Origin: Priapulus caudatus
Lineage: Eukaryota > Priapulida > Priapulimorpha > Priapulimorphida > Priapulidae
Direction: 5' to 3'
Length of the DNA stretch: 24,365 bases
Assembly: GCF_000485595.1 (NCBI RefSeq)
Contig: NW_014577100.1
Coordinates: 435,681 to 460,045, forward strand
Each line of letters begins with the position of its first letter. Within the stretch, counting starts at the first letter, position 1. Of this stretch, positions 1,920 to 24,365 are shown piece by piece. The notes beneath the pieces are model-generated. The model saw nothing but the letters and a program-made list of their open reading frames with translations. It ran no database searches and was not told the origin of the DNA. The position numbers were made by a program, and so were the translations under genes.

Positions 1920-2155
1920 GTTTTCTCTCGCCTCCCTATACCTCGCGCGCTCTTCTCTCGCTCTTCTTCTCTCTCGTTCTCTCTCTCTCCTCGGTAGGCT
2001 TCCTCTCTCTCGCTCTCTCTCGTCTCTCTGCTCGTTCTCTCTCTCTTGCTTCTCCGCTCTCGTCCTCTCTTCTCTCTCCTCTCGTCTCTCTCTCTCTCGC
2101 TCTCCCCTTCTCTCTCTCCTTGGAGAGCTAATCGTAGCTGCGCGCGAGAGAGTGA
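1920..2155 (+). repeat. CT-rich microsatellite tract
   Basis: Interrupted CTCTCT/CTCGCT repeat, mirrored as GA-rich 21960-22140. No supported gene. Confidence 0.85.
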
Positions 2156-2159
2156 ATTA

Positions 2160-3372
2160 ACCCAGGAAATTCTACCATCAATATCTGCTCCTGGGCATTT
2201 AAACAAAATGAATTGATGTCATTTTATTGGGAGAACGTAATGACATTATTATCGTATTCTGCCGAACGTTTGTTATTTTATGATTTTATTTCGGATCTTT
2301 TTCGATTTTTTGGCTCGATTGCGTCTTCATTAAACTGTATCCTGACTACGTACACAATGTTTACAAGCGCTTATTGTAAGATATTATTATTATTATTAGC
2401 CTTCTGATTGTATTTTATGGTGGGCGTGATGGCGCGCGCGAGAAGACACACTTGGCGTACAGAAATAGATTGCATACATAGACTAGCAGCCCAGCGGATT
2501 GTGTCCAAGCTATATAACCTCTTAAGCTCGTTACGTGCTTCCGCGCCACATTAACTTAAGACAAGCTGACAGCGTCGTGGTGGGGGAGCCGACATACAGA
2601 GAATGTCCGTCTTGCTGCTATCCTGGTGGCACGGCCGCAAGCTCTTCACACCACACACAGCATAACATAATAACATGTTGTGTGCGTGCGTTGCGTGCGT
2701 GCCGTGCTGCGTGCGCGCCGTTCATAGAATACCCTGACGCGTTTGTTAACACACCGACATAATATTTACTGCAGTATTCACACAATAAGCGATCCGTTAC
2801 AGAACCAATATCTGTTCCGGAACGCCATTGCGCAATATCAAAGGACCATAGCTCCAGCATAACACTAATGATCGCCCGCTTTATCAGGACAAGAGACCAG
2901 GGAAAATGTACATGATTGTTTTTTTCAAAGACACATGTCGGTTAAGCGTGCGCCGTTTATCGCCGAGGCCAGATAAAGCGGGACGACAGTGGTATCCCAG
3001 AATATGTATCCAACACACATTTCCGGTAGAATATTAATAGGGCAATATATCCATGGGCAATATCGCAGTGAGCTATTTGCAACTGCAAGCAAATCGGTCA
3101 TCATCCTCCAGTGTTCATATGATATAGTTGACTAATGTACAAGGCTGTATTCGTTGTAGGGGGGAATATTGCTCCAGGAAATGACATTCACATTTTGTAG
3201 CAATTGGGGTTGGGGTTAGCTTTTTCGCAAATATTATCGTTCCGCTGAAACCTTAAATAATTTTTTTTTATTGGGCCGTAGAAGAGTTGTTGTCAAGGAT
3301 GGGTTGTTGTCTGGTGGGAAACCGCAGAAGGGGCTATACTGTTGTTCACTGCAAGGAGGTAGGAGATCATAT
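2160..3372. other. Flank block B, no supported gene
   Basis: AT-rich sequence with an (ATT)5 run near 2383-2398, GTGCGTGC repeats near 2685-2715, the 108-bp MITE, and (3180-3370) the flank that recurs in the loop. Two overlapping frames of 75 and 80 codons near 2535-2860 lie on opposite strands and resemble nothing known; they are preserved in the mirror only because the DNA is identical. Confidence 0.5.
2875..2982. mobile_element. 108-bp MITE-like element
   Basis: Terminal inverted repeats CCCGCTTTATCAGG and CCAGATAAAGCGGG (14 bp, one mismatch) enclose 80 bp with no reading frame. No clear target duplication was found (left flank GATCG, right flank ACGAC). The loop copy of this region stops at its inner terminus (12612-12618). 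Confidence 0.5.
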
Positions 3373-3379
3373 GTTCAAT
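3373..3379 (+). repeat. Target-site duplication GTTCAAT, outer side of left element
   Basis: GTTCAAT lies between the flank shared with the loop and the element start ACGGTTTACAG. Its partner is at 8627-8633, and the unfilled single copy is ATTGAAC at 12234-12240. Confidence 0.75.
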
Positions 3380-3401
3380 ACGGTTTACAGTCGCTATAGA
3401 C

Positions 3402-4905
3402 ATGGTGTGACGATTTGTCAAATTAGTCAAACACATGTGTTTGTGGCGAATAACCAATATAAAATGCCAGAACAACATATTACTCTTCTCAAACAACATG
3501 TATATTCACAAAAACATATATACCTGTTTGCAAATAAACCATTATGAAATCCGCGGAAACCACTACCTGTTTTCCTCGCGGGCACAGATGATATATTCGC
3601 GTGCCGGCGACATGCTTTATCTCAAAGCTTGCTTTTCTGAAAGTTGCTTTTCCACGGCCGCTGTGCTTTTTCCCCTTAAGCACTGGTCCCCGCCGCCAGC
3701 GCCTCTCACAAGCTCTCTGCCTAGATAGCACCTGACGGTTTTTGCTGTGCGCCCGAGACAGTGGGGCCGCGACTCCGTCTATAGACCTTCTCCACGTGAC
3801 GTCATAGGCATTAATGCTCAGCTGCTTAGACTGGTAAGAGCCGGTGCGGCACCATCCTCGTCCAGAGACAGGTACACGTCCAGAGCCAGTCTACCAGCTT
3901 TGATCAACCATAGCATAGAATTAGCTGCAAGTAATGCTTTCCCCTTCTTCTATCTATATGCAAACAAACTATAGATTCTCGTGCTAAACGCAAGTAGAAG
4001 CTAAAGCAGAAACTCGTAGAGAGAAGATTGCATTGTGTGCGGTGCTGATTCCCTTATGCCATATGTAGGTCGCGTTTAAATCTGTCCTGGATTGTGAGAG
4101 TAAAGGTTTACCGGTGTCTGTCAAAGGTGAGTTTCTTTGGATGTACAATATCGTAAGACATTGAAATCGCGTGTCTACTGATAACTTACTTTACTTAAGT
4201 ATCCTACGCAGAACTGTTGAGTTGGCATTGGCAGCAAGCCATGTACAGTCGTGTAAAGCAGTACAAACAGAGCACTTTTCCTTGGGGTGAGCAGGAGCCG
4301 TGATACCAGTCATACACTATGTTGTACTTATTTCAACCATCACCCACCAGTAATAATAGCTAGTACGTATGTAGTGTGACGTAGGGTCATGTAACTATGC
4401 AGCATAAAACGTAGACCTCTGGCTATGAGACCATATTGATCTAATACAAAAGTGTTCCTGTAATTCTACTACTTATAAATAATTTACTGTAGTAGCATAT
4501 AATATCATTTTAATTTTAATTATTGTTGTTTCATCATTACGCAGCTATATTACAATGATCTCGCTGCTGTAGTTTATTCCCTTGATGCATTTTATTCTCC
4601 TAGGTGCTGCATTCCCAAAGGCTTTTGGAGGAACCGTTGCAAGTGTGGGTGATTTGTGAGAAGGATGGAGGTGTAACTGTTGTATACGGCCACTCTAACT
4701 GCATGGCAGGGCTTGGGGAGATATGCTCCCATGTAGCTGCGACACTCTTTGCCATTGACAGTGCATGGTAAGTATATATTTAACTGGAAAAAATCAGTGA
4801 GCAAACATGAAATAAACCCATCATAATAGTAACAATTCTTCCCTTCTTAGTAAGAATTTTTACCATGGTTTTAACTTGATTAATCATAGTTAACATTCTT
4901 TCTTT
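3402..4905 (+). repeat. Element inverted arm, left outer copy
   Basis: Starts ATGGTGTGACGATTTGTC and is the reverse complement of 6831-8332. It includes a GTGACGTCATAG site (3797-3808), donor-like GGTGAGTTTC near 4127-4136, the SWIM exon at 4604-4767 and its intron. Homology to the opposite arm ends near GTTAACAT (about 4890-4905). By eye it is identical to the mirrored arm at 19152-20670 except over ~4577-4820. Confidence 0.82.
4604..4767 (+). CDS. SWIM zinc-finger exon, open copy (YqaJ-associated type)
   Basis: This 164-nt exon is bounded by acceptor TTTATTCTCCTAG and donor ATG|GTAAGT, enters in phase 0 and leaves in phase 2. The 54 encoded residues run from VLHSQRLLEE to LFAIDSA. Residues 15-23 (WVICEKDGG) and 29-46 (GHSNCMAGLGEICSHVAA) match the SWIM signature found in many invertebrate proteins that also carry a YqaJ-like recombinase/nuclease domain. 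Zinc ligands C33, C41 and H43 are present. The first cysteine of the usual CxC is serine (S31), encoded by TCT in all four copies. SWIM domains are generally taken to bind DNA or protein. No YqaJ motif is seen nearby, so this is a partial gene model. It is one of four copies and the only undamaged one. Confidence 0.72.
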
Positions 4906-4920
4906 GTCAGCTGGTAGCAG

Positions 4921-5092
4921 CAAATATTTTCCGGTATCGCATTCTCGGCTAGTATTGTTACGGCAGATACGTGGCAGGGAGTGCAGTTTGCTTATAAAAG
5001 GCCTCAGAAAAAGCCATGGCTGCCACCAAATTTTAAGCTGTACTATCGCCATTACTGAAATCCTTGATCCTGTCGTCCCAACAATGCTAGTG
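4921..5092 (+). CDS. Candidate exon 2 of the outer-end SWIM gene
   Basis: The open stretch is flanked by a tandem acceptor TAGCAG (exon start 4918 or 4921) and donor GTG|GTAAGT. With phase 2 from the SWIM exon it completes a cysteine codon, then gives 57 codons beginning KYFPVSHSRLVLL and ending VVPTMLV, leaving in phase 0. The residues are not recognised as a family. The alternative acceptor TTTGTCAG at 4903-4910 would give TGG TAG, an immediate stop, so it is disfavoured. Another frame across the same DNA (WQGVQFAYKRPQKKPWLPPN) also looks protein-like, so the choice is uncertain. Confidence 0.4.
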
Positions 5093-5162
5093 GTAAGTAA
5101 CTTGACATTTAGGAATATAATCAGGTCTAAAATATACTATAATGTATGTTTTTTTCACTCAG

Positions 5163-5311
5163 GTGTTGCAGCAGCATAATCCCCTGTCACCAGATTATGT
5201 GCCATGCTGTATTCGCCCATGGCAAGATTCAACACGAAAAGAGCTCGTTTTACTGGCTGCAGAATCTCATGATGAGGGAGAACAGCATGAAATAGGAGAA
5301 AACATGAGAAA
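5163..5311 (+). CDS. Candidate exon 3 of the outer-end SWIM gene
   Basis: A strong acceptor (polypyrimidine run then CACTCAG) precedes GTGTTGCAGCAG. The frame is phase 0, agreeing with the exon 2 donor. It encodes VLQQHNPLSPDYVPCCIRPW followed by an acidic, glutamate-rich segment ending near ENMRK. A possible donor is AAA|GTATGT at 5311/5312; without it, the frame stays open to a stop at 5460-5462. The family is not recognised. Phase agreement over three successive exons is the main support. Confidence 0.42.
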
Positions 5312-5714
5312 GTATGTAGGTGTAGCATCATATATAGTCGTGTTCGGATACTTAAACTTGCCAGAATTTTCTGTGATAGAAAGTCAAACACTTAAGCATG
5401 CAGGGGTTCGGCTTATTTTTGTTATGTTTCTTGGGTTTTATTCACCTCATCGAAGAAACTGATCACTCATGTTGACAGGCCATGGCATATATATGTATTA
5501 ATTTCTATATATAATATAATATATATTGATATATAATATAATATATATTATCTAATACCATGTTATCATCCTGACCATTACGCTGACTAAAAATATTAAT
5601 GATTGAAACTATAAATTTCAGACTATAGAGATCAACAGCAGCAGCAGGCCTATTAAACCTGGCTGGAGCACCATGGGGCCCAGCCTCATCAGACACAATT
5701 TCCGAGCCAGCACT

Positions 5715-5972
5715 TCATAACACCACCGAACCACCCCAGCACATCAACGATACCCCACAAGAAAGCAGCTTCATCCGACAGCAATCTGACAGCGCGACAA
5801 ATGTCTCCTTGACTTTGTCGATTCGGGCAGCGAAGTTCAAATTGGCCATGCTGTGAACTGTACATTCTGTTAGACGGAGAAGCTTCTGTTGGGCGTTGGC
5901 CTGACTTCTCAAAGTGTTCTGTGCTCCAGGTACTGGCCGACAAGTATGACACTGTTTAACACGACCTGTCAT
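5715..5972 (-). CDS. Unrecognised 85-residue frame, left copy
   Basis: Identical in translation to 18085-18342, by mirroring. No independent support. Confidence 0.22.
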   Translation of the reverse strand: MTGRVKQCHTCRPVPGAQNTLRSQANAQQKLLRLTECTVHSMANLNFAARIDKVKETFVALSDCCRMKLLSCGVSLMCWGGSVVL

Positions 5973-6397
5973 GGAATATAAATTGTGACAGTTTTATTAT
6001 CATTATTATATGTGCATGTTTCACAATACCAAGACCAGCCAAATGTAAATTTGACAAGAGCCGCAGAGCGACTGTTTCAGCTGGAGGTCTGTTGCTACCT
6101 GTTTGTACTAGTATCCTGACTGACGTCAATCCCCCCCACGTCCAAAAATCAAGACCCTACGCGCTCGAGCGGTTAAAAGTTGTGACCATAACTGTTGACA
6201 CACGGACGACTGGACCAATCATCGCGATTCTACAAGCTGCATCTGACTTCGTCAAATAAAAGGATTTTGTCTCATGTCGAATGTTGCCTTTATCACCGAA
6301 GTAATGGCCAGAGCAAACAATAACAATGCACGGCTGGTAAGGCGGCATGTCTGTAACTGAGTACTTGTAGATTTAAAAATTTTAATAAAAACTTTCA

Positions 6398-6475
6398 TCA
6401 CCTGATGCTGCAATCCTTCGTAGAATGACTCCTTTCTCCGCCTTCTGTTTTGCAGGCTTTACACCTCATGGACAT
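6398..6475 (-). CDS. Zinc-knuckle-like short frame, left copy
   Basis: Reverse-complement duplicate of 17582-17659, with the same residues and the same doubts. Confidence 0.2.
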   Translation of the reverse strand: MSMRCKACKTEGGERSHSTKDCSIR

Positions 6476-6652
6476 CTCTAATTGTACAGCTCGTGTTCAC
6501 TCCCAACCACCTGAAACTATTTAGCCAATGTCACCCCTAGCCTTTTGATGGGCATTTTCTGCATTCCGCTCCTAAAATTATTTTGTATAATGATGGGTAG
6601 GTTTTGATACCCCTACATAAATTGTACATAAGGCACACCTGGCATCTTTTAC

Positions 6653-6777
6653 CTTGCGTTGGAGAAGTCCATGTTCTGAGGCTGGTGATGGTACTACATT
6701 GCAAGCTCGAGAATTTGACGGTGCCACCATGTATTGGGTAGGGAGGAGCAGGAAGCTGTCCCTTCTTCATCTTACAA
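6653..6777 (-). CDS. Candidate second exon of inner-end SWIM gene, left copy
   Basis: Mirror of 17280-17404, apparently identical, with the same CCCCAG acceptor and GTAAAA donor. It is preceded on the same strand by the disrupted SWIM exon at 6970-7151. Confidence 0.38.
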
Positions 6778-6830
6778 CTGGGGAAGATAAGAGAAAATTA
6801 TTGCGTCCTACATTAATCATAGCCAGTAAG

Positions 6831-8332
6831 AACAATGATGTTAACTTGATTTACACCCCGTTAAAAAACATGGATAAACATTTTACTACAGCAGGGGAAA
6901 ATTTTTACTATTATGATGGGTTATTTCATGATTTGGCTCGCTATTTTTTTCAGTTAAATATATACTTACCATGCTGTCCTGCAGCTGTCGGAGTACAAGC
7001 TGGCAAGGCTACATGAGGGGTATCTCGCGCAAGCCTGCCATGCAAGTTAGAGTGGCCGTATACAACAGTTACACCTCCGATTCCTTCTCGTACAAATCAC
7101 ACCACATCTTTGATCGGTTCCTCCAAAAGCGCTTTGCCTGGAATGCAGCACCTAGAAGAATAAAATGCATCAAACGGGATAACTAAGCAGAATCATATAG
7201 TAATATAGGCTGGTAATGATGGAAACAACATAATTCAGAAATTAAAATGATATATATGCTTACTAAGTACAGATTTTATAAGTCAGCTAGAATTACAGGA
7301 GAACCCTTTTGTTATTAGATCAATATGGTCTCATAGCCAGAGTCTACGTTTATGTGCAAGTTTAATAGCCTACTGTCACACTACTACGTACTAGTATTAT
7401 TACTGGTGAGTGATGTTTGACAATTAAGTACAACATAGTTATACTGGTATCACGCTGCTCTCACCCAAGGATAAGTGCTCTGTTCTGTACTGTACCACGA
7501 CTTACATGGCTTGGCTGCCGCAAGCACTCAACAGTCTGGTAGGTACTAAGTAAAAGTAAGTATCAGTGAGCAGCGATTCTAATCGGTCTTTACATATGTA
7601 CATCCCAAAGAACTCACCTTTGACAGACCAACCGGTAAACTCTTTACTCTCACAATCCACGGAGCAGATTTAAACGCTGACGTACATATGGCATTAAGGA
7701 TCAGCACCAACACAATCAACTTCTCGCTACATGCTTCTTGTTTAGTTCTCTGCTGTTTAGGCCACAGAAATCTATAGTTTGTTTGCATATAAATTCAGAG
7801 AAGGGAAAGCAATTCTTGCACAATCCTATGGATGATCAAGCTGTAGACTGGCTCTGGACGTGTACCTGTCTCTGGACGGAGTGACGGGTGTCCGACCGGG
7901 TACCAGTCTAAGGCCAGCCTGGAGCATAATGCTATGACGTCAGTGGAGAAAGGTCTATGAGACGGGTCGCCCCAGCCCACTGTTCTGGCGTGCGCCACAG
8001 CAACGCGTCAGGTGTATCTAGCTAGAGAGCTTTGTGAGAGGCGCTGGGGCGGGACCAGTCGTAAATCACAGCGGCCGTGGAAAAGCAACTTTCAGAAAGA
8101 ACTTTGAGAAAGGCAATGTCGCGGCGGCGATATATCATCTTTTGTGCGTTTCCGCGAGGAAAACAGGTAGGGTTTCGTTCGCGGATTTTCATAATGTTAT
8201 TTGCAAATCGGTATATATGTTTTGTGGAATATACATGTTGTTTTGAGAGAGTATATGTTGTTTGTGCATTTTATATTGGTTATTTCGCACAAACACATGT
8301 GTTTTTGAGCTATTTGACAAATCGTACACCAT
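6831..8332 (-). repeat. Element inverted arm, left inner copy
   Basis: Reverse complement of 3402-4905 with frequent short indels. It ends ACACCAT at 8326-8332. It keeps the inward-facing splice sites around a disrupted SWIM exon (6970-7151). Confidence 0.8.
6970..7151 (-). pseudogene. SWIM exon copy, disrupted (left inner arm)
   Basis: Same exon as 4604-4767 on the opposite strand, with acceptor CTAG and donor CATG|GTAAG retained. It is 182 nt instead of 164, and several insertions shift the frame, including around the AGLGEICSH segment. Whether the frame breaks are real or sequencing errors cannot be told here. Confidence 0.65.
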
Positions 8333-8626
8333 AATAGACCGAAGGTCCGATAGACGAAGGCCCGATAAGACCGAAGGTTTATTCGAATACGCAGTGGCTA
8401 CACGTCCGGAATGCGTCGCCTAGCCTCCAGTCTACCGCATCCGGACATCCACTGATGGCCGTATTCGAAACGTGAATATGTCGCACATCCACCGATGCCA
8501 CTATAAATCATAATGATGCCACTATAAACCGATATATATGCCCTAACCCTAACCTCCCCTTAACCCTAACCCTAACCTTTGCAACATTGTCGGTCTATCG
8601 AGACCTTCGGTCTATAGGGCTGCCCC
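8333..8626 (-). mobile_element. ~290-bp unit with inverted ends and telomere-like core
   Basis: The unit opens with TAGACCGAAGGTCCGATAGAC (near 8335-8355) and closes with GTCTATCGAGACCTTCGGTCTA (near 8594-8615), an inverted pair. Inside are repeated GACCGAAGGT/CGATAGAC words, a hairpin (8384-8468: ATTCGAATACG and CGTATTCGAA ends with CCGGA...TCCGG stems), two TGCCACTATAAA repeats, and the (CCCTAA)n-like run. It occurs only at one end of the 5.25-kb element and lies inside the target duplication. It may be the element's true terminus, lost at the other end, or a nested MITE. Confidence 0.55.
8541..8577 (+). repeat. Interstitial telomere-like (CCCTAA)n
   Basis: CCCTAACCCTAACC, a CTCCCCTT interruption, then AACCCTAACCCTAACC. 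This is about five to six units of the TTAGGG-type telomere repeat within the ~290-bp unit, near one end of the mobile element. Confidence 0.8.
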
Positions 8627-8633
8627 GTTCAAT
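8627..8633 (+). repeat. Target-site duplication GTTCAAT, inner side of left element
   Basis: GTTCAAT follows the element end GGGCTGCCCC and precedes GTTATAAC, which begins the flank shared with the loop and right arm. Confidence 0.75.
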
Positions 8634-8639
8634 GTTATA

Positions 8640-9125
8640 ACTTAGAAGGAATTTAATAAGATTTGGTCTAGTCAATTCAATTGACTATCAATACGGTACG
8701 CTGGTGAGATACTGCCCACATAGGAGCCATCCACGAATGCTTGTCCAGTAAAAGGGTATCCATGAGGTATGTAATAAGTTAAATATTATCTACGAGGGAG
8801 CTGAGATTTGTCATATAGTTCTAGTATCCACGAAACGTTAGTTAAACTGTCCCAGAGGGAATTTAAGAGGATTTTGTCCAGTAAGGTGAGTGTCCAGGAG
8901 ATATGTGCATGTTAAGTAAACTGTCCATTCTAAGAATTCCACTGTCCAGGGGATTTAAGAAGGTTTTGTCCAAGTAAGGTCATTGTCCAGGATGTATTTG
9001 CACGTTATTTAAACTGTCGCAGGGGCATTTAAGAGGATTTGTCCAGTGAGGCTAGTGACCATGAGATATGGCATGTGAACGGTTGTCCAGGGGCAGGCAT
9101 CTAAGAAGCCATTGTCGCAGTCCAG
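8640..9125 (-). repeat. ~72-bp minisatellite, left copy
   Basis: About five diverged units keyed on TTAAGAGGATTTTGTCCAGTA and ATGTCCAGGAGATATG-like words, with the heptad TGTCCAG recurring. The outermost units, near 8740-8840, are the most diverged. A near-palindrome TAGTCAATTCAATTGACTA lies at about 8669-8687. No coding potential. Confidence 0.78.
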
Positions 9126-9393
9126 GTTGTCCTTCCCGTGTTAGCGTGCCGCCCGTTCAGCTCGCTTGACGCAGCTGTGGCTACCACCAGCATTCGTTTA
9201 TCATGGTCGGCCCTCAGCACGCAGCAGCAGCAGCAGCACTAGCCAAGCAACCAGCAGCAGGCAGGCAGCAGCCAGCAGCAGCGGCAGCAGCGACGGCAGA
9301 AGCGGCGGCGGCGGCAGCGGGGGCAGCAGTAGCTGCAGACGCCCCGCTGCAGACAGATGGGGTTTGCACAGCGCTACTAATCCCACATGCTTA

Positions 9394-9438
<45 letters not shown>

Positions 9439-9445
9439 GCCATCG
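9126..9445 (+). repeat. CAG and CAT triplet repeats, left copy
   Basis: A spacer with ATTCGTTTATCATGG precedes interrupted CAG/GCAG repeats (9215-9340) and then about fourteen CAT units (9396-9438). The frames yield polyserine, polyisoleucine or polyalanine and are not accepted as genes. Mirror at 14600-14920. Confidence 0.85.
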
Positions 9446-9884
9446 TTGCCGTCATCACAGCGCTGCTTAATATCGCTTGTAATATCGCTTTAGGCGCATC
9501 TAGCGCGTAAGATGATCAGCGGTGATACGTTCGGATCTTATCATCTCTGGCCTCGACTATAGAGACGGCGATTTCTCACCTTGTTAAAATTTACCGTGGC
9601 GGGCATTTTTACATGTATTAAAGCTTGCACTGTGTGTCTTCTTATCTCACTCTCGCCAACTCACTTTCTCGTCGTTGTGCTAACCCGCTTTCTCATCTCT
9701 TGACCTCTGGTTCGCGGGCAAACAAAGAATGGCCACGAAGTGTCGCCTTTGTCAAAATAAGGTGCCCCCGCTAATATCATCACACTGACGGGGGCAAGCA
9801 CTACAAGCTAGGCAATTTCGCTCTCTCAGATCAAACACTGCGATAACGTTACATATACCACGCGAGTGTCAGACGTGAGAAATA

Positions 9885-10130
9885 GATGAGAGATCGAGAG
9901 CCGAAAGAGGGGAGATAACGCGCGCGCAGGGAGGGAAAGAGAGACAAAGCGAAAGAAAAGAGAGAGGGGTGGAGAGGCGAAAGACAGAGAGCAAGAAAAG
10001 AGAGAGTCTCAGGAAAGAGAGAGAGAGAGAGCGAGAGAAGAGAGAGAGAGAGAGATAATGCTCAAAGAAAAGAGAGAGAGAGAGAGAGACAGAAAGAGAA
10101 AGAGAGAGCGCGAGACAGAGTACACGGAGC
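9885..10130 (+). repeat. GA microsatellite tract
   Basis: GAGAGA repeats with AAAG interruptions, mirrored as CT at 13915-14165. Confidence 0.85.
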
Positions 10131-10391
10131 AGTCGACGCGCGAGGGCTGCCGACAGATTTAATACAATCGCCACGGCCGCGCACGCACAATGCCTGCATC
10201 CATGTACCGCAGCCAAGAAATGAACTACGTGCTCCCAACATAAAGCCGTCCTCTTACCTCTCCCGCATCGCCGGGAAACACTCGGCTCCTTTGGTCGGCG
10301 ACACCGCCGCTCTAACCCGGCTTCATAAACATTCAAATGAGAGCTTGTCGAGTGGGCATCTCCCACGCTCTCCGGCTCTCATCACTCTCAT

Positions 10392-10625
10392 GTCCCGCTA
10401 TCTCTCTCTTGCTCGCTCGCCTCGCTCTCTCTCTCTCTCCTCGCCCTGCTCTAGCTCTCGTTCTCACTCCTATCTCTCTCCTCTAATTCTCGCTCTCCTC
10501 ACCGTCTGTCTCTCACGATCACTCTCGCGTTCGCTTTTTTTTTCTCGCTCTGTCTCTTTCTTCTTTATCGGGCTCTCTCTCTCCCTCCTCTCTCTCTCGT
10601 CGCTCTTATCTATCTATCTCTTTTG
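10392..10625 (+). repeat. CT microsatellite tract
   Basis: CTCTCT repeats with CTCGCT, TTTTTT and TATCTATC interruptions, mirrored as GA/GATA at 13410-13640. Confidence 0.85.
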
Positions 10626-11459
10626 CCTCCGCGTCTTTTCCCCCTGATTTGTTACCTATTTCCTAATCCTACTAAATCGCATGTGACACGTGCAAAGACA
10701 TGTTACATTCGTTCTCTCGCTCTTTCTCTCTTCTCTATCCCTCTCTTTCATATCGCGTCTCTCCTCCCTTTCGCCTTCCCCTCTCTCTCTAAGCGCTGGC
10801 TAGGTATACACGACCTCGCCGCAGCATCTCTCCTACATCCTCTCAGCATGCCTTCCTCCTCTCCCTTTTCTCCCCGCCTGCCTTCTCCGCACGCCGAGCC
10901 GACACATATTGCCTCTCAGCCACCGCACTCCTGGCTTAACACCGACACGCGTAAAGTGACCCCTTTGCGAGCGACTTCTGAGCGCCGGCACATCAAAGGG
11001 CCGTGGCGACGGCGGCGGCGAGCGTAGCTGCCGCCCGCCACGCCGCTAGAGGTCGCTGTAGAGCACCCCTCTCCACGTCCTCTCCCTCTCCGTCGCTGGC
11101 GGCGGCCGGCCCGAGCACAAGCACCTCCGCGCCGCAGGACTGCGCAAACGCGGCGGCGCTCTTTGATGTCGCCTGCCGATGATTTCATTAGCGCGTATCC
11201 GCCGTGCCCCGGCATCCGCGCCGGAGCGCGGGCTTAGACTGCCGCCGTCACCCGGCGGTATGCGTAGGGTTCATGATTGGTGGCGGAGCCGCGGTGGAAG
11301 TTAACGGTGAGAAATTGCGGGAAGTTAGCGAATGCGAGCGATCGTGGCGAGCGAGAAAGGACGACCACGTATTAACTCATTCTTCCACGGACAAATAAGT
11401 AATCGCGAGGAGGCGGAGCAGCGACGACACGCGTCATAGGAGAGATATGATCCTTATAT

Positions 11460-11512
11460 CGTGTGTGCGTGCGTGCGTGTGCGTCGTTGTGTGTGTCTCT
11501 CTTGTGTGTGTG

Positions 11513-11547
<35 letters not shown>

Positions 11548-11558
11548 CGTGCAGTGGC

Positions 11559-11623
<65 letters not shown>

Positions 11624-11655
11624 TGTTGCTACTGCTGCTGCTGCTGCTGTGCTGA
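11460..11655 (+). repeat. (GT)n then (CTG)n, loop copy
   Basis: GT/GTGC repeat (11460-11550) followed by about thirty CTG-type units with TTG and CTA interruptions. It stands where the arms have interrupted CAG/CTG plus (CAT)n/(GAT)n, so the loop copy differs in repeat type as well as length. Confidence 0.9.
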
Positions 11656-11740
11656 GGTGCCGACCAATGATAAACGAATGTTGCGTGGTAGCACAGTGCG
11701 TCAGCGAGTGAACGAGGGCACGCTAACACGGGAAGGACAG

Positions 11741-12233
11741 TAACCTGACTGGACAATGGCCTTCTTAGATGCCTGCCGCCTGGACAACCGTTCACATGCA
11801 TATCTCATGGTCACTAGCCTCACTGGACAAAATCCTCTTAAATGCCCCTGGACAGTTTAAATAACGTGCAAATACATCCTGGACAATGACCTTACTGGAC
11901 AAAACCCTCTTAAATTCCCCTGGACAGTGGAATTCTTAAATGGACAGTTTACTTAACATGCACATATCTCCTGGACACTCACCTTACTGGACAAAATCCT
12001 CTTAAATTCCCTCTGGACAGTTTAACTAACGTTCGTGGATACTAGAACTATATGACAAAATCTCAGCTCCCTCGTAAATAATATTTAACTTATACATACC
12101 TCATGGATACCCTTTTTACTGGACAAGCATTCGTGGATGGCTCCGATGTGGGCAGTATCTCACCAGCGTACCGTATTGATAGTGTATTGAATCGACTAGA
12201 CCAAATCTTATTAAATTCTTTCTAAGTTGTAAC
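11741..12233 (+). repeat. ~72-bp minisatellite, loop copy
   Basis: Same array in reverse orientation: units begin CTGGACAAAATCCTCTTAAA and carry CTGGACAGTTTAAATAACGTG. One unit has a ~20-bp duplication around GGAATTCTTAAATGGACAGT. It is followed directly by the unoccupied ATTGAAC. Confidence 0.8.
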
Positions 12234-12240
12234 ATTGAAC
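12234..12240 (+). other. Unoccupied target site (single ATTGAAC)
   Basis: Here GTTGTAAC-ATTGAAC runs straight into sequence matching the opposite flank of the element (CCTACCTCC). In the two arms these two flanks are 5.25 kb apart and each carries its own heptamer. Confidence 0.8.
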
Positions 12241-12618
12241 AGTATATCCCCTACCTCCTTCGTGAACAGTAGCCCCTTTCTGGGTTCTCCCCCAGACAAC
12301 AACCCATCCTTGACAACAAGCTCTTCTAGGCAATAAAAAAATTATTTAAGGTTCAAGCGAACGATAATATTTCGAAAAGCTAACCCCAACCCCCAATTGT
12401 ACAAAATGTTGATGTCATTCCTGAGCAATATTCCCCCTTAACGAATACTGCCCTTGTACATTATCAACTATATCATATAACCCTGGAGGATATGACCGAT
12501 TTGTTGAGATTGCAAAGAGCTCACTGCGATATTGGCCCAAGGATATATTGCCCTATTAATATTCTACGGGAAATGTTGTGTTGGATACATATTCTGGGAT
12601 ACACTGTCGTCCCCGCTT

Positions 12619-13970
12619 ACGCGTGTCGCTCGCTGCTCCGCTCCGCGATATTATTTGTCTCGTGGAAGAATGAGTTAATACGTGTCGTTTTCTCGCTCGC
12701 AACCGATCGCTCGCATTTCGCTAACTTCCCCGCAATTTCGTCACCGTAGACTTCCACCCGCGCTCCGCCACCAAATGACCCTACGCATACCGCCCGGGTG
12801 ACGGCGGCAGTCTAAGCCGGCGCTCGGCCGGATGGCCGGGGCACGGCGGCGGCGTAATGAAATCATCGGCAGGCCGACATCAAAGAGCGCCGCCGCGTTT
12901 GCGCAGTCCTGCGGCGCGGAGGTGCTTGCTGCTCGGCCGGCCGCCGCCAGCGACGGAGAGGGAGAGGACGGGGGAGGGGGTGCTCCTACAGCGACCTCTA
13001 GCGGCGTGGCGGCCGGCAGCATACGCTGCGACGCTCGCCGCCGCCGCCGCCACGGCCCTTTGATGTGCCGGCGTCAGAAGTCGCTCGCAAAGGGTCACTT
13101 TGCCGCGTGTCGGTGTTAAGCCAGGAGTGCGTGGCTGAGAGGCAATATGTGTCGGCTCGGCGTGCGGGAGAGGAGAGGAGGAAGGATGCTGAGAGGATGA
13201 GGAGAGATGCTGCAGGAGGTCGTGTATACCTAGGCAGCGCTTAGAGAGAGAGGGGGAAGGCGAAAGGGAGGGAGAGACGGCGAATGAAAGAGAGGGATAG
13301 AGAAGAGAGAAAGAGCGAGAGAACGAATGTAACATGTCTTTTGCACGTGTCACATGGATTAGTAGGATTAGGGAAATAGGTAACAAATCAGGGGGAAAAG
13401 ACGGGAGGCAAAAGAGATAGATAGATAGAGAGCGAGAGAGAGAGAGAGGGAGAGAGAGAGCGCGATAGAGAAAGAAAGAGACAGAGCGAGAAAAAAAAAG
13501 CGAGCGAGAGTGATCGTGAGAGACAGACGGTAGGGAGAGCGAGAATTAGAGGGAGAGAGATAGCGAGTGAGAACGAGAGCTAGAGCAGGGGCGAGAGAGA
13601 GAGAGAGAGCGAGCGAGCGAGCAAGAGAGAGATAGCGGGAATGAGAGTGAGTGAGAGCCGGAGAGCGTGGGAGATGCCCACTCGACAGCTCTCATTTGAA
13701 TGTTTATTGAAAGCGGTTTAGAGCGGCGGTGTCGCCGACCAAAGGAGCGAGTGTTTCCCGGCGATGCGGGGAGGTAAGAGGACGGCTTTATGTTGGGGAG
13801 CACGTAGTTCATTTCTGGTGCGGTACATGGATGCAGGCATTGTGCGTGCGCGGCCGTGGCGATTGTATTAAATCTGTCGGCAAGCCCTCGCGCGTCGACT
13901 GCTCCGTGTACTCTGTCTCGCGCTCTCTTTTTCTCTTTCTGTCTCTCTCTCTCTCTTTTCTTGAGCATTA

Positions 13971-14029
<59 letters not shown>

Positions 14030-14590
14030 CTGAGACTCTCTCTCTTTTCTTGCTCTCTGTCTTTCGCTCTCCCACCCTCCCTCTCTCTCTTTCGCCTTGT
14101 CTCTCTTTCCCTCCCTTGCGCGCGCGTTATCTCTCCCCTCTTTCGCTCTCGATCTCTCATCTATTTCTCACGTCTGACACTCGGGTGTTATAGTTAACGT
14201 TATCGCAGTGTTTGATCTGAGAGCGAAATTGTCTAGCTGTAGTGCTTGCCCCCGCAGTGTGATGATATTAGCGGGGGCACCCTTATTTTGACAAAGGCGG
14301 ACACTTCGTGGCCTGTCTTTGTTTGCCGCGCGAGCCAGAGGTCAAGAGATGAGAAGCGGGGTTAGGCACAACGACGAGAAAGTGAGTTGGCGAGAGCTGA
14401 GATAAGAAGACACACAGTGCAAGCTTTAATACATGTAAAATGCCCGCACCGGTGAATTTTAACAAGGTGAGAAATCGCCGTCTCTATAGTCGAGACAGAG
14501 ATGATAAGATCCGAGGTGATCACCGCTGATCAGTCTTACGCGCTAGATGCGCCTGAAGCGATATTACAAGCGATATTAAGCAGCGCTGTC
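12619..14590. other. Inner arm block Y, mirrored copy, no supported gene
   Basis: Reverse complement of 9446-11434 with many short indels. It holds GC-rich sequence (12770-13080), GA tracts (13230-13640), the moderately complex 13660-13900 and CT tracts (13915-14165). No gene supported. Confidence 0.5.
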
Positions 14591-14605
14591 GATGACGACA
14601 ACGAT

Positions 14606-14608
14606 GGC

Positions 14609-14658
<50 letters not shown>
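14606..14658 (+). repeat. (GAT)n microsatellite, right copy
   Basis: About seventeen GAT units (about fourteen in the left mirror), followed by the CTG-rich interrupted repeat to ~14830. Confidence 0.85.
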
Positions 14659-14659
<1 letters not shown>

Positions 14660-14919
14660 TAAGCATGTGGGATTAGTAGCGCTGTGGCAAACCCCATCTG
14701 TCGCAGCGGGCGTCTGCAGCTACTGCTTGCCCCCGCGCGCCGCCGCCCTGTCTGCCGTCGCTGCTGCCGCTCTGCTGGCTGCTGCCTGTGCTGCTGGTTG
14801 CTTGGCTATGCTGCTGCTGCTGCTCGTGCTGAGGGCCGACCCAATGATAAACGAATGCTGCGTGGTAGCCACAGTGCGTCAAGCGATGAACGAGGGCAGC
14901 GCTAACACGGAAGGACAGT

Positions 14920-15417
14920 AACCTGACTGCCGACAAATGGCCTTCTTAGATGCCTGCCCCTGGACAACCGCTTCACATGCATATCTCATGTCGACTAGCC
15001 TCACTGGACAAAATCCTCTTAAATGCCCCTGGACAGTTTAAATAACGTGCAAATACATCCTGGACAATGACCTTACTTGGACAAAACCCTCTTAAATTCC
15101 CCTGGACAGTGGAATTCTTTAGATGGACAGTTTACTTAACATGCACATATCTCCTGGACACTCACCTTACTGGACAAATCCTCTTAAATTCCCTCTGGAC
15201 AGTTTAACTAACGTTCGTGGATACAGAACTATATGACAAATCTCAGCTCCCTCGTAGATAATATTTAACTTATACATACCTCATGGATACCCTTTTACTG
15301 GACCAAGCATTTCGTGGATGGCTCCTATGGTGGGCAGTATCTCACCAGCGTAACCGTATTGATAGGAATTGAATTGACTAGGACCAAATCTTATTAAAGT
15401 TCCTTCAAGGTTATAAC
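14920..15417 (+). repeat. ~72-bp minisatellite, right copy
   Basis: Direct repeat of the loop array and inverted repeat of the left array, including the same ~20-bp internal duplication, so all three derive from one array. Confidence 0.8.
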
Positions 15418-15425
15418 ATGAAAGC

Positions 15426-15729
15426 GGGGGCAGCCCTATAGACGCGAAGGTCTTGATAGACCGAAATGTTGCAGACATAGGGTTAGGGTAGCGGATTAAG
15501 GGGAGGTTAGGGTCAGGGCATCATATATGGTTTATAGTGCGCCATCATTATGATTTATAGTGCGCAATCTGGATGTGCGACATATTCACTTTCGAATACG
15601 GCCATCAGTGGATGTCCGGGATGCGGTAGACTGGAGGCTAGGCGACGCATCCGGACGCTGTTAGCCACTGGTGATTCGAATAAACCTTCGTCTATCGGGC
15701 CTTCGTCTAAATCGACCTTCGCGTCTATT
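15426..15729 (+). mobile_element. ~300-bp unit with telomere-like core, right copy
   Basis: Mirror of 8333-8626 with scattered indels. It starts GGGGGCAGCCCTATAGAC and contains the TTAGGG-like run, the TTTATAGTG repeats and the TTCGAATACGG...ATTCGAATAA hairpin. Confidence 0.55.
15478..15519 (-). repeat. Interstitial telomere-like repeat, right copy
   Basis: TAGGGTTAGGGTAGCGG...GGGGAGGTTAGGGTCAGGG, the mirror of 8541-8577 with more interruptions. Confidence 0.75.
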
Positions 15730-17228
15730 ATGGTGTACGATTTGTCAAAATAGCTCAAAAACACAGTGTGTTTGCTGCGAAATAACCAATATAAAATGCA
15801 CAAACGAACATATTACTCTGCTCAAAACAACATGTATATTCCACAAAACATATGATACCCGACTCCGTTGCAAATAAAACATTATTGAAAATCCGGAACG
15901 GGAAACGCGACTACCTGTTTTCCTCGCGGAAACGGCACAAAAGATGATATATCGCCGCCGCCGTACATGCCTTTCTCAAAGTTCTTTCTGAAAGTGCTTT
16001 TCCACGCAGCCGCTGTGATTTACGACTGCGTCCCGCCCCAGCGCCTCTGCACAGCTCTCTAGCTAGATACACCTGACCGTTGCTGTGCGCCACGCCAGAA
16101 CAGTGGGCTGGGGCGACCCGTCTCATAGACCTTTCTCCACTGACGTCATAGCATTATGCTCCAGCTGCCTTAGACTGGTACCCGGTCGACACTCCGTCAC
16201 TCCGTCCAGAGACAGGTACACGTCCAGAGCCAGTCTACAGCCTTGATCATCCATAGGATTGCTGCAAGAATTGCCTTTCCCTTCTCGAATTTATATGCAA
16301 ACAAACTATAGATTCTGTGGCTAAACAGCAGAGGAACTAAACAAAGAAGCATGTACGAGAAGTTGATTGTGTTGTGGCTGATCCTTATGCCATATGTAGT
16401 CAGCGTTTAAATCTGCTCCGTGGATTGTGAGAGTAAAGAGTTTTACCGGTCGTCGGTCAAAGGTGAGTTTCTTTGGGATGTACATATGTAAAGACCGATT
16501 GAATCGCTGTCACTGATAACTTACTTTACTTAAGTACCTACAGACTGTGAGGTCTGCGGCAGCCAAGCCGATGTAAGTCGTGCGTACAGTACAGAACAGA
16601 GCACTTTATCCTTGGGTGAGAGCAGCGTGATACCAGTATAACTATGTTGACTTATGTTCGAATATCATCACCAGCTAATAATACTAGTACGTGAGTAGTG
16701 TGGCACAGTAGGCTATTAAACTTGCACATACAACGTTAGACTCTGGCTATGAACCATCATTGATCTGAATCAACAAAAGTGGTTCTCCTGTAATTCTAGC
16801 TACTTATGAAAATCTGTACTTAGTAAGATATATATCATTTTAATTTCTTAATTATTGCTTGTTTCATTCATTACCAGCTATATTACAATGATTCTGCTGT
16901 AGTTTATTCCCTTGATGCATTTTATTCTCCTAGGTGCTGCATTCCCAAAGGCTTTTGGAGGAACCGATGCAAGTGTGGGTGATTTGTGAGAAGGATGGAG
17001 GTGTAACTGTTGTATACGGCCACTCTAACTGCAGGCAGGCTTGCGCGAGATATGCCTCCATGTAGCTGCCGAACACTTGCTTTGCCATTGACAGTGCATG
17101 GTAAGTATATATTTAACTGAAAAAAATAGTGAGCAAACATGAAATAACCCATCATAATAGTAAAATTTTTCCCTGCTTAGTAAAATGTTATCCATGTTTT
17201 TTAACTTAAATCAAGTTAACATTCATTG
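15730..17228 (+). repeat. Element inverted arm, right inner copy
   Basis: Begins ATGGTGTACGATTTGTC and matches the left inner arm by mirroring and the outer arms by internal inversion. It diverges from 3402-4905 by many short indels, but 16880-17160 follows the left outer arm closely, including the CTAG acceptor and the GTAAGT donor. Confidence 0.8.
16934..17100 (+). pseudogene. SWIM exon copy, disrupted (right inner arm)
   Basis: It starts after CTCCTAG and ends before GTAAGTATAT, with 167 nt. The frame agrees with the intact copy through GHSNC, then indels around 17030-17085 shift it and give a TAG stop. The 5' two thirds differ from the intact copy at one codon (CCGATG for CCGTTG, leucine to methionine). 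Confidence 0.68.
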
Positions 17229-17279
17229 TTTGTACTGGTATATTAATGTAGACGCAATATTTTCTCTTATCTTCCCCAG

Positions 17280-17404
17280 TTGTAAGATGAAGAAGGGACA
17301 GCTTCCTGCTCCTCCCTACCCAATACATGGTGGCACCGTCAAATTCTCGAGCTTGCAATGTAGTACCATCACCAGCCTCAGAACATGGACTTCTCCAACG
17401 CAAG
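17280..17404 (+). CDS. Candidate second exon of the inner-end SWIM gene
   Basis: Acceptor TATCTTCCCCAG precedes TTGTAAGATG, and donor ACGCAAG|GTAAAA follows. Joined in phase 2 to the SWIM exon at 16934-17100, it reads C-C-KMKKGQLPAPPYPIHGG and on to WTSPTQG. It differs completely from the exon reached from the other end of the element (4921-5092), so the two convergent genes share the SWIM exon but not the following one. The family is not recognised. If unspliced, the frame runs on to a TAG at 17518-17520. Confidence 0.4.
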
Positions 17405-17581
17405 GTAAAAGATGCCAGGTGTGCCTTATGTACAATTTATGTAGGGGTATCAAAACCTACCCATCATTATACAAAATAATTTTAGGAGCGGAATGCAGAA
17501 AATGCCCATCAAAAGGCTAGGGGTGACATTGGCTAAATAGTTTCAGGTGGTTGGGAGTGAACACGAGCTGTACAATTAGAG

Positions 17582-17659
17582 ATGTCCATGAGGTGTAAAG
17601 CCTGCAAAACAGAAGGCGGAGAAAGGAGTCATTCTACGAAGGATTGCAGCATCAGGTGA
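17582..17659 (+). CDS. Short frame with a zinc-knuckle-like C-x2-C-x9-H-x4-C
   Basis: The 25-residue frame from MSMRCKACK to CSIR, then TGA, holds two Cys-x2-Cys residues, a His nine residues later and a Cys four after that. CCHC knuckles are frequent near SWIM domains in transposase-like proteins, though their usual Cys-His spacing is shorter. It lies downstream of the exon at 17280-17404 on the same strand. No clear in-phase acceptor was found, so this may be chance. Confidence 0.2.
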   Translation: MSMRCKACKTEGGERSHSTKDCSIR

Positions 17660-17708
17660 TGAAAGTTTTTATTAAAATTTTTAAATCTACAAGTACTCAG
17701 TTACAGAC

Positions 17709-17900
17709 ATGCCGCCTTACCAGCCGTGCATTGTTATTGTTTGCTCTGGCCATTACTTCGGTGATAAAGGCAACATTCGACATGAGACAAAATCCTTTTA
17801 TTTGACGAAGTCAGATGCAGCTTGTAGAATCGCGATGATTGGTCCAGTCGTCCGTGTGTCAACAGTTATGGTCACAACTTTTAACCGCTCGAGCGCGTAG
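17709..17900 (+). CDS. Unrecognised 63-residue frame in element core
   Basis: The frame starts MPPYQPCIVIVCSGHYFGDK and ends TFNRSSA before a stop. It lies between the zinc-knuckle-like frame and the 85-residue frame on the same strand. No domain is recognised. An identical copy is at 6157-6348 on the minus strand. Confidence 0.2.
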   Translation: MPPYQPCIVIVCSGHYFGDKGNIRHETKSFYLTKSDAACRIAMIGPVVRVSTVMVTTFNRSSA

Positions 17901-18084
17901 GGTCTTGATTTTTGGACGTGGGGGGGATTGACGTCAGTCAGGATACTAGTACAAACAGGTAGCAACAGACCTCCAGCTGAAACAGTCGCTCTGCGGCTCT
18001 TGTCAAATTTACATTTGGCTGGTCTTGGTATTGTGAAACATGCACATATAATAATGATAATAAAACTGTCACAATTTATATTCC

Positions 18085-18342
18085 ATGACAGGTCGTGTTA
18101 AACAGTGTCATACTTGTCGGCCAGTACCTGGAGCACAGAACACTTTGAGAAGTCAGGCCAACGCCCAACAGAAGCTTCTCCGTCTAACAGAATGTACAGT
18201 TCACAGCATGGCCAATTTGAACTTCGCTGCCCGAATCGACAAAGTCAAGGAGACATTTGTCGCGCTGTCAGATTGCTGTCGGATGAAGCTGCTTTCTTGT
18301 GGGGTATCGTTGATGTGCTGGGGTGGTTCGGTGGTGTTATGA
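18085..18342 (+). CDS. Unrecognised 85-residue frame in element core
   Basis: ATG-to-stop frame with a CHTC near the N-terminus, then a stretch that would form an amphipathic helix (QANAQQKLLRLTE), then ARIDKVKETFVALSDCCR. It lies on the same strand as, and downstream of, the inner-end SWIM exon chain. A second 87-residue frame overlaps it one base off (18105-18368). The opposite strand also has a long open frame here (left-arm sense, about 5640-5854, with PWGPASSDTISEPALH), so strand and reality are unsettled. Confidence 0.25.
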   Translation: MTGRVKQCHTCRPVPGAQNTLRSQANAQQKLLRLTECTVHSMANLNFAARIDKVKETFVALSDCCRMKLLSCGVSLMCWGGSVVL

Positions 18343-18745
18343 AGTGCTGGCTCGGAAATTGTGTCTGATGAGGCTGGGCCCCATGGTGCTCCAGCCAGGT
18401 TTAATAGGCCTGCTGCTGCTGTTGATCTCTATAGTCTGAAATTTATAGTTTCAATCATTAATATTTTTAGTCAGCGTAATGGTCAGGATGATAACATGGT
18501 ATTAGATAATATATATTATATTATATATCAATATATATTATATTATATATAGAAATTAATACATATATATGCCATGGCCTGTCAACATGAGTGATCAGTT
18601 TCTTCGATGAGGTGAATAAAACCCAAGAAACATAACAAAAATAAGCCGAACCCCTGCATGCTTAAGTGTTTGACTTTCTATCACAGAAAATTCTGGCAAG
18701 TTTAAGTATCCGAACACGACTATATATGATGCTACACCTACATAC

Positions 18746-18894
18746 TTTCTCATGTTTTCTCCTATTTCATGCTGTTCTCCCTCATCATGAGATTCTGCAG
18801 CCAGTAAAACGAGCTCTTTTCGTGTTGAATCTTGCCATGGGCGAATACAGCATGGCACATAATCTGGTGACAGGGGATTATGCTGCTGCAACAC
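18746..18894 (-). CDS. Candidate exon 3, mirrored copy
   Basis: Reverse-complement duplicate of 5163-5311 with the same acceptor, frame and donor; the frame continues to a stop at about 18595 if unspliced. Confidence 0.4.
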
Positions 18895-18964
18895 CTGAGT
18901 GAAAAAAACATACATTATAGTATATTTTAGACCTGATTATATTCCTAAATGTCAAGTTACTTAC

Positions 18965-19136
18965 CACTAGCATTGTTGGGACGACAGGATCAAGGATTTC
19001 AGTAATGGCGATAGTACAGCTTAAAATTTGGTGGCAGCCATGGCTTTTTCTGAGGCCTTTTATAAGCAAACTGCACTCCCTGCCACGTATCTGCCGTAAC
19101 AATACTAGCCGAGAATGCGATACCGGAAAATATTTG
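18965..19136 (-). CDS. Candidate exon 2, mirrored copy
   Basis: Appears identical in sequence to 4921-5092. Here the upstream SWIM exon (19290-19464) is frame-broken, so in this arm the exon could not be translated as part of the same product unless the breaks are sequencing errors. Confidence 0.38.
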
Positions 19137-19151
19137 CTGCTACCAGCTGAC

Positions 19152-20670
19152 AAAGAAAGAATGTTAACTATGATTAATCAAGTTAAAACCATGGTAAAAA
19201 TTCTTACTAAGAAGGGAAGAATTGTTACTATTATGATGGGTTTATTTCATGTTTGCCTCACTGATTTTTTTAGTAAAATATATACTTACCATGCACTGTC
19301 AATTGGCAAAGAGTGTCGCCCGCCGCCTACATGGAGCATGCTCCCCAAGCCCTGCCATGCAGTGTAGAGTGCGCCGTATACAAACAGTTACACCTGCCAT
19401 CCTTCTCACAGAATCACCCACACTTGCATACGGTTCCTCCAAAAGCCTTTGGGAATGCGAGCACCTAGCCGAGAATAAAATGCATCAACGGGAAATAAAC
19501 TACAGCAGCGAGATCATTGTAATATAGCTGCGTAATGATGAAACAACAATAATTAAAATTAAAATGATATTATATGCTACTACAGTAAATTATTTATAAG
19601 TAGTAGAATTACAGGAACACTTTTGTATTAGATCAATATGGTCTCATAGCCAGAGGTCTACGTTTTATGCTGCATAGTTACATGACCCTACGTCACACTA
19701 CATACGTACTAGCTATTATTACTGGTGGGTGATGGTTGAAATAAGTACAACATAGTGTATGACTGGTATCACGGCTCCTGCTCACCCCAAGGAAAAGTGC
19801 TCTGTTTGTACTGCTTTACACGACTGTACATGGCTTGCTGCCAATGCCAACTCAACAGTTCTGCGTAGGATACTTAAGTAAAGTAAGTTATCAGTAGACA
19901 CGCGATTTCAATGTCTTACGATATTGTACATCCAAAGAAACTCACCTTTGACAGACACCGGTAAACCTTTACTCTCACAATCCAGGACAGATTTAAACGC
20001 GACCTACATATGGCATAAGGGAATCAGCACCGCACACAATGCAATCTTCTCTCTACGAGTTTCTGCTTTAGCTTCTACTTGCGTTTAGCACGAGAATCTA
20101 TAGTTTGTTTGCATATAGATAGAAGAAGGGGAAAGCATTACTTGCAGCTAATTCTATGCTATGGTTGATCAAAGCTGGTAGACTGGCTCTGGACGTGTAC
20201 CTGTCTCTGGACGAGGATGGTGCCGCACCGGCTCTTACCAGTCTAAGCAGCTGAGCATTAATGCCTATGACGTCACGTGGAGAAGGTCTATAGACGGAGT
20301 CGCGGCCCCACTGTCTCGGGCGCACAGCAAAAACCGTCAGGTGCTATCTAGGCAGAGAGCTTGTGAGAGGCGCTGGCGGCGGGGACCAGTGCTTAAGGGG
20401 AAAAAGCACAGCGGCCGTGGAAAAGCAACTTTCAGAAAAGCAAGCTTTGAGATAAAGCATGTCGCCGGCACGCGAATATATCATCTGTGCCCGCGAGGAA
20501 AACAGGTAGTGGTTTCCGCGGATTTCATAATGGTTTATTTGCAAACAGGTATATATGTTTTTGTGAATATACATGTTGTTTGAGAAGAGTAATATGTTGT
20601 TCTGGCATTTTATATTGGTTATTCGCCACAAACACATGTGTTTGACTAATTTGACAAATCGTCACACCAT
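19152..20670 (-). repeat. Element inverted arm, right outer copy
   Basis: Mirror of the left outer arm, ending CACACCAT. Sequence at 19496-20670 appears identical to its left partner. The interval 19237-19495, which contains the SWIM exon, has about ten or more one- to three-base insertions relative to the left copy. Confidence 0.82.
19290..19464 (-). pseudogene. SWIM exon copy, disrupted (right outer arm)
   Basis: Mirror of the intact exon, 175 nt, with added single bases through the whole exon and a GCGGGCGG-type insertion near the CSH ligands. Sequence on both sides appears identical to the left copy, which makes local uncorrected read error a strong alternative to decay. Confidence 0.68.
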
Positions 20671-20692
20671 GTCTATAGCGACTGTAAACCGT

Positions 20693-20699
20693 ATTGAAC
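20693..20699 (+). repeat. Target-site duplication ATTGAAC, right element
   Basis: Reverse complement of GTTCAAT, between the element end (GTAAACCGT) and the flank ATATGATCTCCTACC that is also found after ATTGAAC in the loop. Confidence 0.7.
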
Positions 20700-21089
20700 A
20701 TATGATCTCCTACCTCCTTGCAGTGAACAACAGTATAGCCCCTTCTGCGGTTTCCCACCAGACAACAACCCATCCTTGACAACAACTCTTCTACGGCCCA
20801 ATAAAAAAAAATTATTTAAGGTTTCAGCGGAACGATAATATTTGCGAAAAAGCTAACCCCAACCCCAATTGCTACAAAATGTGAATGTCATTTCCTGGAG
20901 CAATATTCCCCCCTACAACGAATACAGCCTTGTACATTAGTCAACTATATCATATGAACACTGGAGGATGATGACCGATTTGCTTGCAGTTGCAAATAGC
21001 TCACTGCGATATTGCCCATGGATATATTGCCCTATTAATATTCTACCGGAAATGTGTGTTGGATACATATTCTGGGATACCACTGTCGT

Positions 21090-21197
21090 CCCGCTTTATC
21101 TGGCCTCGGCGATAAACGGCGCACGCTTAACCGACATGTGTCTTTGAAAAAAACAATCATGTACATTTTCCCTGGTCTCTTGTCCTGATAAAGCGGG
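21090..21197. mobile_element. 108-bp MITE-like element, right copy
   Basis: Mirror of 2875-2982 with the same CCCGCTTTATCTGG and CCTGATAAAGCGGG ends. Confidence 0.5.
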
Positions 21198-22735: not shown

Positions 22736-22759
22736 AGTGATGATGATGCCGCTGCTGTT

Positions 22760-23301: not shown

Positions 23302-23348
<47 letters not shown>

Positions 23349-24310: not shown

Positions 24311-24352
<42 letters not shown>

Positions 24353-24364: not shown

Positions 24365-24365
24365 T

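Follow-up and report, generated by a model that had tools for sequence, protein, structure and literature searches.

A nested insertion, its empty site and a probable assembly palindrome in Priapulus caudatus

Introduction

Comparison with an empty site is an established kind of evidence, and nested insertions, MITEs and foldback elements are likewise known; the locus described here is read against them. Polintons (Mavericks) measure 15–20 kb, and their hallmarks are genes for a protein-primed polymerase, an integrase and a capsid. In IS3EU, complete families end in TA..TA and as a rule produce 6-bp target duplications (PMC10045372). Two kinds of sequencing product also bear on the locus: sequence inserted by PBJelly from simulated reads has a mean identity of 88.61–95.17% (PMC8848313), and in one study palindromic reads of Arabidopsis amounted to 0.5% without amplification and to 43.6–47.8% with it (PMC6218980).

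The outer of the two elements at this locus resembles MITEs in its length, its related ends, its 8-bp duplications and its dispersal in at least 14 copies, but it is unlike the usual MITE in that the copy considered here is interrupted by another element and that the family contains TTAGGG-like repeats. The inner element resembles foldback elements in its long TIRs, a likeness in architecture alone. It also shares with IS3EU/GingerRoot elements a TATGG start and a 6-bp duplication, but differs from them in a right end without the final A, in TIRs of ∼1.5 kb and in that no transposase was found; because of the right end and the transposase result the inner element is not placed in that group. 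The DDE transposase of the IS3EU lineage was specifically not found in a six-frame Pfam search of the inner element, and a non-autonomous member would lack one. The noise in the arms of the locus falls in the same range as the PBJelly figures for gap filling in hybrid assemblies, whereas mirror-image placement around a single seed is not described in the portions of that study used here (PMC8848313).

Results

The window is a stretch of 24,365 bp, positions 435681–460045 of contig NW_014577100.1 (C40 below), from a genome that was searched over 385,217,808 bases in 2,952 contigs. It occupies exactly the space between two runs of N (C40:411599–435680 and 460046 to at least 500045). Sampling of C40 at 20 places of 201 bp found N throughout in ten of them; the alternation of such runs with islands of sequence suggests that they are gaps, although they may instead be withheld stretches. 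Within the window lies an inverted repeat of two noisy 11.3-kb copies, arm 1 at 127–11434 (minus strand) and arm 2 at 12619–23881 (plus strand), on either side of a loop. The mirror image appears to end at 127, short of the left edge of the island; its continuation through window 1–126 was considered and dropped, as that segment aligned with the reverse of the stretch following 23881 (23882–24040) no better than shuffled sequence (as high a score arose in 84 of 500 shuffles). Outside the mirrored part, at 24070–24252 (plus strand), there is an exon-like open frame of 61 codons with an acceptor-like AG before it and GT after it, which had no match in Pfam or PDB. Neither Rfam families nor tRNA genes were found, positions 12619–20000 had no match in the phage records searched, one exact 20-base word of the minisatellite had no match in a viral collection, and one 22-base word had none in a bacterial and archaeal collection.

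A first-pass annotation of this DNA had proposed that the loop holds the empty site of a 5.25-kb insertion carried by both arms, and the presence and absence of an insertion at one site within a single window is indeed what is seen. The loop copy of both flanks (11575–12618, plus strand) is uninterrupted and joins them through a single ATTGAAC at 12234–12240 (plus strand), the 8-bp target probably being CATTGAAC at 12233–12240. In the window self-comparison, loop 11583–12240 matches 8627–9291 (minus) at 93.2% and loop 11583–12239 matches 14760–15422 (plus) at 92.9%, while loop 12234–12618 matches 20693–21096 (plus) and 2976–3379 (minus) at 87.9% each. The left- and right-flank segments of the loop share only the heptamer at 12234–12240, which is also where the gap in the multiple alignment opens, and the same flanks in the arms are separated by ∼5.25 kb and break at the heptamer. 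The flank alignments extend over 414–678 columns with E of 6e-128 or lower, and chance is therefore excluded. The loop flanks are not better matched elsewhere: a 1,036-bp loop query, run against the whole genome in a search that skips simple repeats, gave 29 matches, the five long ones all within the window and the remaining 24 short and confined to query 1–72, a TGC microsatellite.

Counting both strands, the window contains four intact copies of ATTGAAC, at 12234, 20693, 3373 and 8627. The heptamers said to bound the insert are thus intact as the right target-site copy of arm 2 (20693–20699, plus) and as the right and left copies of arm 1 (3373–3379 and 8627–8633, both minus), but the left copy of arm 2 (15418–15425, plus) is degraded to ATGAAAGC, which leaves three of the four filled-site copies intact. 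CATTGAAC is read at the left flank of arm 1 as it is at the empty site, and the right flank reads GTATTGAAC; the target duplication in the window is accordingly exact over 7 bp, with the preceding base C on the left and T on the right.

The 5.25-kb insert itself, which had been treated as one unit, proves to be two nested elements: its two portions, the first ∼306 bp and the remainder, match different sets of places, which rules out a single element. When the 5,270-bp insert was used as a query, with the best 40 of 980 first-look candidates scored so that counts are lower bounds, its first ∼306 bases matched at least 14 separate places as a ∼300-bp unit, and query 307–5248 matched, for example, C978, C1357, C2290, C1045, C1164, C84, C97 and C603.

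In arm 2 the left ∼300 bp of the outer element lie at 15426–15728 (plus), the last 6 bp, GTCTAT, being the left copy of the inner target duplication, and its right end at 20671–20690 (plus) begins with the right copy (GTCTAT, 20671–20676). The counterparts in arm 1 are 8334–8626 (minus) and 3382–3401 (minus), with GTCTAT at 3396–3401 and the limit at 3382 mirrored from arm 2. Among 14 fetched genomic copies, both ends were recognised in 11 (279–313 bp) by a script that takes the best of four start positions within the leading G run; an exact 8-bp target duplication was found in eight, agreement at six of eight positions in three, and the other three were without a recognised end pair. The ends are related and inverted, the left reading GGGG(G/T)CAGCCC... 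and the right ...GGCTGTAACC with variants. Intact units read through GGTCTATAGGGCTGTAACC, again with variants, and it is at this point that the copy in the window is broken, with GTCTAT on either side. Judged by these structural features, the outer element is a MITE, that is, a short non-autonomous DNA transposon with an 8-bp target duplication. The heptamer is 7 bp of this normally 8-bp duplication; the loop shows the MITE site empty, and the intact MITEs are in turn empty sites of the inner element. TTAGGG-like repeats also occur, as a variable run, in the MITE at 15426–15728 and the 14 genomic copies, which have a tail of short GGTCTATCGGACCTTC-like repeats as well.

The inner element (15729–20670, plus, in arm 2; 3402–8333, minus, in arm 1) is 4.94 kb long and sits near the right end of the MITE. 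Its ∼1.5-kb TIRs (∼15729–17240 and 19141–20670 in arm 2, ∼6838–8333 and 3402–4896 in arm 1) enclose a middle of ∼1.9 kb. Along arm 2 the order is GTCTAT (15723–15728), the inner element (15729–20670), GTCTAT (20671–20676), a short tail that ends at 20690 and, from 20693, the heptamer; the 6-bp duplication GTCTAT, as read at this one site, flanks the inner element and is single in intact MITEs. The start of the element, TATGGTGTACGA, recurs at C978, C2055 and C999, each time with unrelated flanks, and looser matches to it occur at C1357, C1164 and C84. TATGGTG forms the left end in the two arms as well as at C978, C2055 and C999; at the right end, the window has CACCAT and lacks a final A. In the genomic stretches examined, no foldback copy besides those of the window had both ends. 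A six-frame search of the arm 2 copy (X at stops) found no Pfam family at E≤1, where noise could hide weak matches. A transposase was sought inside the insert and none was found, the PalH match in one ORF (E = 0.045) being far below its cut-off; a Polinton/Maverick was ruled out by the six-frame Pfam result and by a length of 4.94 kb, far under 15–20 kb. The architecture argues for a non-autonomous foldback element. As it is nested inside the MITE, the MITE would therefore have been inserted first and the foldback element second.

The two arms are identical over long blocks, and they carry what looks like unpolished long-read error. A 1,997-bp block at 17259–19255 (plus) is exactly identical to arm 1 4802–6798, and a 2,198-bp block at 19494–21691 (plus) to arm 1 2381–4578; shorter exact blocks measure 163, 325 and 106 bp. 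BLAST alignments of arm 1 with arm 2 contain 224 mismatches (87 transitions and 137 transversions) and 356 indel events, of which 280 involve a single nucleotide; these counts supersede a MAFFT count (475 mismatches, 268 gaps) in which close indels had been forced into mismatches. A three-way count over the left flank gives private inserted/deleted bases of 4/3 for the loop, 17/4 for arm 2 and 12/6 for arm 1, 24 of the arms' 29 inserted bases being G or C, and private substitutions of 9, 11 and 18 for arm 2, arm 1 and the loop, respectively. The loop differs more from the right flank, which lies in an identical block, than from the left (12.2 against 5.9–6.4).

The noise extends into the identical sequence. 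Compared with the TIR copy on C978, the variable part of arm 2, the variable part of arm 1 and the second identical block show 52, 38 and 39 mismatches; events with an extra base number 55, 45 and 54 and those with a missing base 21, 23 and 22, which gives 11.1, 9.2 and 10.4 events per 100 aligned positions. The TIR part of the 2,198-bp block is about as noisy as the variable parts, with the same surplus of extra bases; on these rates, the view that the noise peaks in the identical blocks was given up. A four-row TIR count speaks for that view, with private substitutions, insertions and deletions numbering 106/48/13 in R, 44/35/3 in L1, 60/32/2 in L2 and 4/11/4 in C978, but R is overstated in it, as the vote treats changes common to L1 and L2 as ties and discards them. 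The ∼170-bp MITE core is a weaker control: arm 2 shows 16 private substitutions and five private insertions there, whereas arm 1, with no private substitution and two private insertions, hardly stands out from the 14 other copies, which have 0–5 private substitutions each and, in five cases, private insertions.

Extra bases outnumber missing ones in 22 of 28 rows that set the window against a genomic copy (16 loci outside C40, of which two on C978 overlap, as do two on C1045), with exceptions at C1357 (4), C603 (1) and C2055 (1). When the copies are compared with each other, five of the 14 listed pairs have few indels (mismatches/indel events 31/7, 35/17, 28/6, 29/2 and 24/5), and the nine that are indel-rich all involve C1357, C603 or C1164; a further listed pair, of overlapping loci on one contig, was set aside from the 14. 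The indel-rich foldback copies on C1357, C603 and C1164 may be further unpolished stretches of the assembly. The signature elsewhere is consistent with an assembly in which some stretches are clean and others unpolished, and could also reflect an older divergence of those copies. A mismatch-based age for the arms was discarded because the differences look like sequencing error.

Genome searches with the outer-arm stretches 12619–14600 and 21097–24365, for which the best 40 of 4,847 and the best 40 of 4,424 candidates were scored, gave long matches only in the window among the matches listed, the others being short. The neighbouring island, examined over 395681–411598, contains an inverted repeat of its own, C40:400171–404204 against 407497–411589, which is very gappy (mismatches/indel events of 102/166, 78/88 and 33/22 in the three best alignments) and stops 9 bp before the edge of the island and the N run. 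A direct repeat (395742–396789 and 398989–400114) adjoins it. The islands 506971–517687 (whole) and 535001–544129 (in part) are without a long inverted repeat, the sole one found spanning 226 columns at 73%.

Discussion

Over ∼590 bp of the left flank, 25 alignment columns set the loop apart from both arms. Four of these are isolated substitutions, all transitions (0.7%), and the rest comprise 14 clustered substitutions that are hard to tell from noise and seven indels. A divergence of one to three per cent at most is at an allelic level in many invertebrates, and the loop is most likely the other haplotype, an empty allele. The first-pass annotation had offered two readings, that the loop diverged from the arms before the insertion or that it represents another allele; the second is the likeliest, but the order of divergence is unsafe as genome history because the arrangement of arms and loop, which had been taken as genomic, is more likely a product of assembly, given the indel-rich differences and the identical noise. 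The loop is not a plain allele from end to end. Its left end does not match the sequence expected next to the arms: 11435–11574 consists of a short non-repetitive word and then GT- and TGC-rich repeats, at which point the arms differ, and 11444–11574 matched nothing in the rest of the window above about 32 bits besides GT-type simple repeats. In addition, both arms meet the loop where neither flank naturally continues.

The locus is probably one that exists in two haplotypes and was built into a single faulty contig, the palindrome being an artefact of assembly. On one haplotype a ∼300-bp MITE would have inserted at CATTGAAC and duplicated its target, and a 4.94-kb non-autonomous element with ∼1.5-kb TIRs would later have entered the MITE close to its right end, with GTCTAT as the duplicated target. 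On the second haplotype the site would have stayed empty, and this haplotype would have been assembled as a cleaner seed contig of ∼1.2 kb, the present loop. Gap filling or contig extension may then have added the filled haplotype, represented by noisy long reads, to both ends of the seed in mirror image, such that one sequence appears as two arms. The use of one sequence twice is suggested by the blocks of identical noise, which would be unexpected from separately read arms or from two passes of one molecule, and the second indel-rich inverted repeat at the edge of the neighbouring island also supports an artefact, as does the exact fit of the window between two runs of N. The end of the mirror image short of the left edge of the island, the two other islands with no long inverted repeat, the inconspicuous MITE core of arm 1, the six rows without a surplus of extra bases and the indel-rich pairs among other copies speak against this reading.

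It is unlikely that the palindrome is real, with near-identical 11-kb arms around a spacer in which part of the arm is present a third time, diverged and empty, and with long reads from indistinguishable arms having given both the same noisy consensus. Identical blocks could come from gene conversion in such a palindrome or from pooled reads, the tested outer-arm stretches match in full only within the window among the matches listed, and the assembly joins the loop to both arms without a break. However, the differences outside the identical blocks are mostly single-nucleotide indels with fewer transitions than transversions, unlike mutations, the tested identical block contains as much indel noise as the rest, and an inverted repeat of like quality lies at the edge of the neighbouring island. 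A genomic young inverted duplication, in which 11-kb arms were kept alike by gene conversion and the spacer retained an older empty copy, so that one chromosome would show the site before and after the nested insertion, appears quite improbable.

A palindromic read, arising from a missed SMRTbell adapter or from fold-back during amplification and built into the contig, is a very doubtful source of the arrangement. Such reads are documented (PMC6218980), but the two passes of such a molecule would give independent errors, and yet two blocks of ∼2 kb are identical, the second of them complete with its noise. A plain missed adapter would, moreover, presumably leave no unpaired 1.2-kb loop. That the loop is a deletion product, left with one target copy after a polymerase or repair process skipped the hairpin between two, is extremely improbable: inverted repeats of 1.5 kb that lie between short direct repeats are classically prone to precise deletion and would suit it, but the four isolated transitions that separate the loop from both arms are unexpected after a recent deletion.

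With the palindrome read as a probable assembly artefact, two empty/filled comparisons order two insertions, with the outer preceding the inner, and they fix the termini of two transposon families. Inverted repeats that have a high ratio of indels to substitutions, contain exact blocks and are bounded by runs of N are suspect as assembly products, and neither divergence times nor gene conversion should be inferred from them.
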